Position numbers and translations under genes: made by a program. From Rehaibacterium terrae (GTDB lineage Bacteria > Pseudomonadota > Gammaproteobacteria > Xanthomonadales > Xanthomonadaceae): 64,000 bases of DNA. Below the pieces are notes generated by a model, which had not been told where the DNA came from, did not search any database, and saw nothing but the letters and a program-made list of their open reading frames with translations. Below, one piece after another: positions 43,198 to 45,713 of the stretch; position 1 is the first letter of the stretch; every line of letters begins with the position of its first letter. The stretch is taken from NCBI RefSeq assembly GCF_014202935.1, contig NZ_JACHHX010000014.1:1-64000 (forward strand). Direction: 5' to 3'.

Positions 43198-43845
43198 ATG
43201 CGCCACGCCCAGCGCCACGCCCAGACCCGTGCCCGCGAACGCCGCCAGCGCCTGGCCATCGAGGCCGCACGGCTGATGATCGAAAGCGGCATCCGCGACT
43301 TCCATCGCGCCAAGCTCAAGGCCGCGCAGCGTCTGGGCATCCACGACGACGAGTCGCTCCCGCGCAACAGCGAGATCGAGCAGGCGCTGCGCGAACATCA
43401 GCGGCTGTTCCTCGGCGAGGCCCAGGCCACGCTGCTGCACGACCGGCGCCAGGCCGCGCTGCGGGCGATGGTCTTCTTCGAGCGCTTCCAGCCGCGCCTG
43501 GTCGGGCCGGTACTGCAGGGCACCGCGGACCGGCACTCGGCGGTCTGCCTGCACCTGTACACCGACGACGCCGAGGCCGTGCCGCGCTTTCTGCTCGAAC
43601 ACCGGATTCCCGTCGAAACGCAGACACGCCGGCTGCGGCTGGACCGCGAGCGCAGCGCCGAATTCCCGGTGTACGTGTTCAGCGCCGAGGACACGCCCTT
43701 CGACCTGACCGTGCTGCCGCTGGACGCGCTCCGCCAGGCCCCGCTCGACCGGATCGACGACCGGCCGATGCGTCGCGCCGGCATCGAGGCGGTACGGCGA
43801 CTGCTGGTGGCCGAGGAGATTGCCGGCTTCGAGGCCGCAGACTAG
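43198..43845 (+). CDS. conserved protein of unknown function
   Basis: A 215-residue soluble protein, strongly basic at the N-terminus (RHAQRHAQTRARERRQRLA) and mostly helical for the first half. The middle has VFFERFQPRLVGPVLQGTA followed by ADRHSAVCLHLYTDDAEAV, and the tail is acidic. It looks like a family I have seen in Xanthomonadales with no assigned function; the LVGPVLQG/LHLYTDD part could be a nucleotidyltransferase-like fold, but no catalytic motif is convincing. It follows mrcA by 102 bases and its stop overlaps the convergent membrane protein gene. Confidence 0.7.
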   Translation: MRHAQRHAQTRARERRQRLAIEAARLMIESGIRDFHRAKLKAAQRLGIHDDESLPRNSEIEQALREHQRLFLGEAQATLLHDRRQAALRAMVFFERFQPRLVGPVLQGTADRHSAVCLHLYTDDAEAVPRFLLEHRIPVETQTRRLRLDRERSAEFPVYVFSAEDTPFDLTVLPLDALRQAPLDRIDDRPMRRAGIEAVRRLLVAEEIAGFEAAD

Positions 43846-44402
43846 CCCGCCGCCGACCTGCTCGTGCCGGCCAGCCCGAACACGTTCAGCTCGATCGCCA
43901 CGAAGGCGATCAGCCACAACGCCGCATCCCAGGCGTCCAGCCACTCACCCTGCCACAACCAGGCCAGTGCGAACGCCGCCAGCAGCGCATACAGCCCGAG
44001 CGTCGCACCGCGGCGCAGCCGATGGAATCGGCGGAAGCCGGCATCGACCCGCAGCTCGGACTCCAGCGCGACCACCACGCCCAGCCAGGCGCAGGCATTG
44101 GCGAAGTCCAGCCACTCGCCGTCAAGGCTGTAACTGACGCAGGCCCAGATCACCGCGAGGGTCGCGCACAGACGCAGGCCATGGGCGAACCGGCGCTGGC
44201 CGTCGCCCATCGACCAGCCCCCGGTTTCCCACTCGAACAGCAGCAAGAGCACCACCCAGGCCGCGGTATCGACCGTCTCGGCCAGGGTGCCGTGCAGCGA
44301 ATACAGCAGGACGTTCGCCGCCAGCAGTGCGTACACACACCACTTGAAACCGGCGAAGGCGCGTTGCGCCCACGCCGGCGGTGGCGACGTCGCCGCACCC
44401 AT
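43842..44402 (-). CDS. six-helix membrane protein made of three 57-residue repeats
   Basis: A 186-residue integral membrane protein of unknown function. Six hydrophobic segments lie at about 20-36, 44-58, 76-92, 100-114, 134-150 and 157-171. They form three tandem units with an exact 57-residue period: G38/G95/G152, W49/W106/W163 and E57/E114/E171 coincide, and YALLAA occurs at 24-29 and 138-143. Each unit is two helices with a buried glutamate at the end of the second. It lies just downstream of gltA on the same strand (12-base gap), so it may share the gltA transcript. Transport or voltage-sensor-like roles are possible but unsupported. Confidence 0.75.
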   Translation of the reverse strand: MGAATSPPPAWAQRAFAGFKWCVYALLAANVLLYSLHGTLAETVDTAAWVVLLLLFEWETGGWSMGDGQRRFAHGLRLCATLAVIWACVSYSLDGEWLDFANACAWLGVVVALESELRVDAGFRRFHRLRRGATLGLYALLAAFALAWLWQGEWLDAWDAALWLIAFVAIELNVFGLAGTSRSAAG

Positions 44403-44414
44403 TGTCGCGATGGA

Positions 44415-45713
<1,299 letters not shown>

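Follow-up and report, generated by a model that had tools for sequence, protein, structure and literature searches.

A triplicated two-helix hairpin in a small inner-membrane protein of Rehaibacterium terrae, a candidate channel or carrier

The mitochondrial carrier family (SLC25) places three two-helix repeats in one chain, with about 100 residues per repeat and a PX[DE]XX[KR] motif at the odd-numbered helices. UreI is built on a plan of three hairpins with the pore within the monomer and both termini in the periplasm (PMC12087780), and SatP of the Gpr1-Fun34-YaaH family has six helices in threefold pseudo-symmetric hairpins with a fold as in UreI (PMC4602095). Families that triplicate a hairpin are few, and because UreI and SatP are channels, a protomer of threefold hairpins can be a channel. 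Here we describe a membrane protein encoded at positions 43842-44402 of a 64,000-nucleotide stretch of the Rehaibacterium terrae genome (contig NZ_JACHHX010000014.1; the whole stretch is called the window), whose chain consists largely of three copies of one hairpin. Its repeats measure 57 residues in contrast with those of SLC25, the PX[DE]XX[KR] motif is absent, and proline does not occur beyond residue 9, all prolines being confined to residues 7-9. Relatives of about 285 residues carry a periplasmic insert with a pair of cysteines; these are referred to as the long form and the window protein and its equals as the short form.

The internal repeat and the predicted fold

Translation of the minus strand gave 186 residues, in agreement with the length given for the gene. 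An earlier note on this DNA had described three two-helix hairpins with residue trios recurring every 57 positions, and the translation bears this out. G38/G95/G152, W49/W106/W163 and E57/E114/E171 are identical at a shift of 57, D45 and D159 align with N102 in the middle, and YALLAA is found at residues 24-29 and 138-143, in repeats 1 and 3. When the protein was scored against itself without gaps (BLOSUM62) at all shifts from 10 to 149, shift 57 scored best with 77, shift 114 scored 56, and the next best shift scored 32. Neither the 2000 full shuffles nor the 2000 shuffles preserving the hydrophobic/polar pattern reached a score of 77 at any shift from 30 to 90. Three profiles, one per repeat, were built from 33 homologues, and hhalign aligned them in the same register without gaps (P = 1e-7 for repeats 2 and 3, 2.4e-5 for 1 and 3, and 3.8e-5 for 1 and 2). 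The same profiles did not match AmiS or SatP (E 0.05-0.76). Because the shift-57 score lies far beyond chance and the repeat profiles match each other, the short-form protein is a triplication of a two-helix hairpin. A chance resemblance among hydrophobic hairpins could draw on the five three-way identities, which are not significant as a count alone (about 25% of shuffles match them at some period), but with 0/4000 shuffles at the shift-57 score and repeat profiles in register (P 1e-7 to 4e-5), unlike the unrelated six-helix families, we regard that explanation as refuted and give it practically no weight.

The AlphaFold2 model of the short form, made with 19 sequences, has six helices (H1 to H6; Table 1), and the helix starts at 10/67/124 and at 40/97/154 are exactly 57 residues apart, as the reading of three hairpins would have it. 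The long-form model (predicted local distance difference test, pLDDT, 91.6; predicted template-modelling score, pTM, 0.86) adds a small mixed periplasmic insert, and the six helices exceed a pLDDT of 90 in both forms. The predicted fold would have a threefold axis. The mean number of lysine and arginine residues is 3.7-5.1 in the cytoplasmic loops and the N-terminus and below 1 in the periplasmic loops, where aspartate and glutamate average 1.4-2.3. This charge bias predicts a cytoplasmic location for both termini and for the loops H2-H3 and H4-H5, and a periplasmic one for the three hairpin tips. Two cysteines are present in the insert of 26/26 long forms and probably form a periplasmic disulfide.

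The searches made in Pfam (hmmscan of 19 members), NCBIfam and the PDB gave no match for the family, with nothing up to E 5 in the PDB by sequence, and searches of the literature for any account of this family or of its gene cluster yielded nothing relevant. DUF1516 was set aside, since it appeared in two members only (best E 0.003) and was unseen in the window protein and five long forms. The family resembles AmiS/UreI (PF02293), proton-gated channels for urea and amides that form a hexameric ring with a pore in each protomer, in having six helices as three two-helix hairpins, as the repeat profiles and predicted helices indicate here. Membership was rejected, as no PF02293 match was found at E<=1 in the 19 members and hhalign of the family profiles gave a probability of 0.2%. 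The topology also appears to be opposite, the termini of UreI being periplasmic and those of the present family cytoplasmic by charge bias. SatP (PF01184), a channel for acetate and succinate, shares the plan of six helices from three hairpins, and was likewise rejected on the basis of no Pfam match in the members and hhalign probabilities of 0.1-0.2% against five PF01184 proteins. For neither model did Foldseek find a PDB match at E<=0.001. In a structural second look the matches listed did not rise above the background for helical bundles, among them SatP 5ys8 (Z 8.0, 135 residues, 4.1 A), on whose helix 1 our helix 2 was placed; UreI was not among the matches listed for either model. Cytochrome b561 was among the few matches that extended over the greater part of either model (4o6y; Z 7.9, 156 residues, 4.9 A, and Z 8.3, 178 residues, 4.8 A for the other model), which would suit a heme-binding redox protein of that type. 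These Z values are at the same background, and because the conserved columns hold no invariant histidine (H74 is present in 23/33), heme ligands are lacking and we consider a b561-type protein very improbable. By these comparisons the family has no detectable relationship to UreI or SatP, though it follows the same plan; it is new to the curated libraries searched, with an architecture of a known kind.

Conservation of the hairpin core

Relatives are found in many Lysobacteraceae and in betaproteobacterial metagenome-assembled genomes, and, in the longer form, in other Gammaproteobacteria and a single, more remote genome of this phylum; the plasmids and viral contigs searched contained none. 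Conservation was assessed in 57 distinct sequences, the window protein and 56 other homologues, with some columns counted in 33. The earlier note took the uninterrupted period as a mark of structural constraint, and this did not survive the alignment. The 57/57 spacing between the tryptophans is kept by 0/56 other homologues, in which the first spacing spans 57-130 residues and the second 57-70. The length of the periplasmic loops varies between a few and about 70 residues. Other Lysobacteraceae have a longer third hairpin tip than the window protein, and in the long form the first tip is longer by about 20 residues and the second by about 70. Because the window protein is the exception among its homologues, its exact period is no sign of constraint; as judged from the alignment, the period is peculiar to this protein and the constrained part is the core of each hairpin.

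The conservation proposed for the three glutamates held in part. E171 is invariant and 50 of the 57 sequences keep the complete trio, while three homologues have L or M at position 57 and four have Q or A at position 114. The invariant glutamate of repeat 1 is instead E59, two residues beyond E57. The tryptophan trio W49/W106/W163, which had been listed without emphasis, is invariant in 57/57, and so is D159. D45 is near invariant, position 102 is N, D or E, and G95 is not conserved (10/33 homologues). The self-correlation of the conservation profile is highest at shift 57 (r=0.52). Conservation moments place E42/D45/W49/L52/F56/E59 on a single face of H2, D99/N102/W106/L113 on one face of H4 and D156/D159/W163/A166/I170 on one face of H6, at 57-equivalent positions.

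A candidate channel or carrier

The protein is most likely a small channel or carrier built to the UreI/SatP plan. We propose an inner-membrane protein of six helices that arose by triplication of one hairpin, in which the conserved faces of H2, H4 and H6, as helical periodicity suggests, would meet around a central path. From the periplasmic end, each face would present an acid or amide (D45/N102/D159, with E42/D99/D156), then the invariant tryptophan, and at the cytoplasmic end a glutamate (E57 with E59, E114 and E171). This stripe of the D/N-W-(L/V/A)-E kind fits a pore or a binding site, and the product would be a small, acidic channel or carrier gated by tryptophan. With its invariant tryptophans and near-invariant acids, such a protein could serve as a compact model for building a permeation path out of threefold symmetry.

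The genes around the long form suggest a cargo. Queries for agmatinase, class III aminotransferase, gamma-glutamyl-GABA hydrolase (PuuD), a glutamine-synthetase-like ligase, PuuB and PuuC found homologues of polyamine catabolism within 4 kb of 19/20 long-form genes. The linkage was the same for 13/14 long-form genes that had no role in choosing the queries, and a control of nineteen stretches chosen arbitrarily from the same genomes, together 232,899 bases, gave one match. The typical gene order is aminotransferase, agmatinase, PuuD-like hydrolase and then the long form. Because the gene sits in such clusters, our best guess for the long-form cargo is a polyamine-type organic cation, likely of the putrescine/agmatine type. 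For a triplicated six-helix channel or carrier, with a polyamine-type cargo in the long form and the cargo of the short form left unspecified, we estimate a probability of roughly 45%. The wider proposal, that these are unclassified threefold-hairpin channels or carriers whose long-form clade is an unrecognised inner-membrane route for putrescine or agmatine working with the agmatinase, aminotransferase and PuuD pathway, is more speculative and we consider it unlikely. The close association of the long form with polyamine catabolism nevertheless offers a concrete lead to a polyamine transporter for bacteria in which most of these clusters have no importer next to them.

Several points weigh against this interpretation. 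A PuuD homologue was not found in six short-form host genomes, the same query being positive in four long-form genomes, and the only ligase homologue in these six hosts is GlnA-like (31-34% identity), presumably the housekeeping glutamine synthetase. Because these hosts are without PuuD, the polyamine role is not transferable to the window protein, and its extension to the short form was rejected for now. The pore would follow from helical periodicity, transport and ligand binding are putative, and no known channel matched either model significantly in structure. Gene neighbourhood is indirect evidence, and a sensor or an accessory subunit would be just as compatible with the adjacent genes.

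An accessory or regulatory membrane subunit would have no pore and would stabilise or regulate a neighbouring transporter or enzyme. The gene follows that of a sodium:solute symporter (SSF) in betaproteobacteria and of a SulP permease with STAS and cyclic-nucleotide domains at two loci (L047 and L096), a third locus (L103) has an SSS symporter two genes off, and the protein is small and without a recognised transporter signature, all of which would suit such a subunit. Most long-form clusters examined, however, have no adjacent transporter, and because the neighbours vary by clade (gltA, a symporter or polyamine genes) there is no constant partner. The most conserved residues would also lie on one face of H2, H4 and H6 instead of an exposed patch, and we hold a subunit of this kind to be unlikely, though a serious contender. 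Less likely still is a membrane sensor, which would relay the binding of a small cation or metabolite as a signal through the protein, without transport. Amine-binding sites are often acidic with tryptophan, and the periplasmic domain of the long form probably contains a disulfide, both in keeping with a sensor, but neither form has a cytoplasmic signalling domain, the termini are short and the short form has no periplasmic domain.

Clusters of class III aminotransferase, agmatinase, PuuD-like hydrolase and long form recur in Gammaproteobacteria (loci L045-L049 and L084-L096), for the most part with no recognised polyamine importer next to them. A second paralogue, about 30% identical and on the opposite strand, occurs in the same clusters (L084:8743-9615, L091:5324-6193, L094:10764-11645 and L096:5421-6278); such paralogues have D or E in place of N102 and have lost E116. 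The SulP permease gene directly before the long form lies at L047:4624-6771 and L096:7293-9491, and the cyclic-nucleotide-binding and STAS domains were seen in that of L047.

Surroundings of the short form

The features of the window are collected in Table 1.

Table 1. Coordinates of the short-form gene, its repeats and the adjoining genes in the window
Feature	Coordinates	Strand	Details
Six-helix membrane protein gene, short form	43842..44402	-	186 amino acids; homologues; AlphaFold2 pLDDT 91.5, pTM 0.84
Repeat 1	44205..44375	-	residues 10-66; helices 10-37, 40-60; D45, W49, E57, E59
Repeat 2	44034..44204	-	residues 67-123; helices 67-93, 97-118; D99, N102, W106, E114
Repeat 3	43863..44033	-	residues 124-180; helices 124-150, 154-176; D156, D159, W163, E171
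gltA, citrate synthase	44415..45713	-	NCBIfam PRK05614; same direction, 12 bases upstream of short form
Convergent gene	43198-43845	+	215 amino acids; overlaps short-form gene end by 4 bases

At every Lysobacteraceae locus examined gltA is the neighbour of the short form, and no terminator-like or promoter-like site was found between 43500 and 46300; the short form is apparently part of the gltA operon of Lysobacteraceae. In the betaproteobacterial loci the gene is placed after UbiB and the symporter. A contig assigned to the cyanobacterium Tolypothrix (L032) holds a Lysobacteraceae gltA locus with this gene at 64% identity, probably a contamination of that assembly. The product of the convergent gene has no Pfam match at E<=0.1; the gene is conserved beside the short form in Lysobacteraceae with 61-71% identity.
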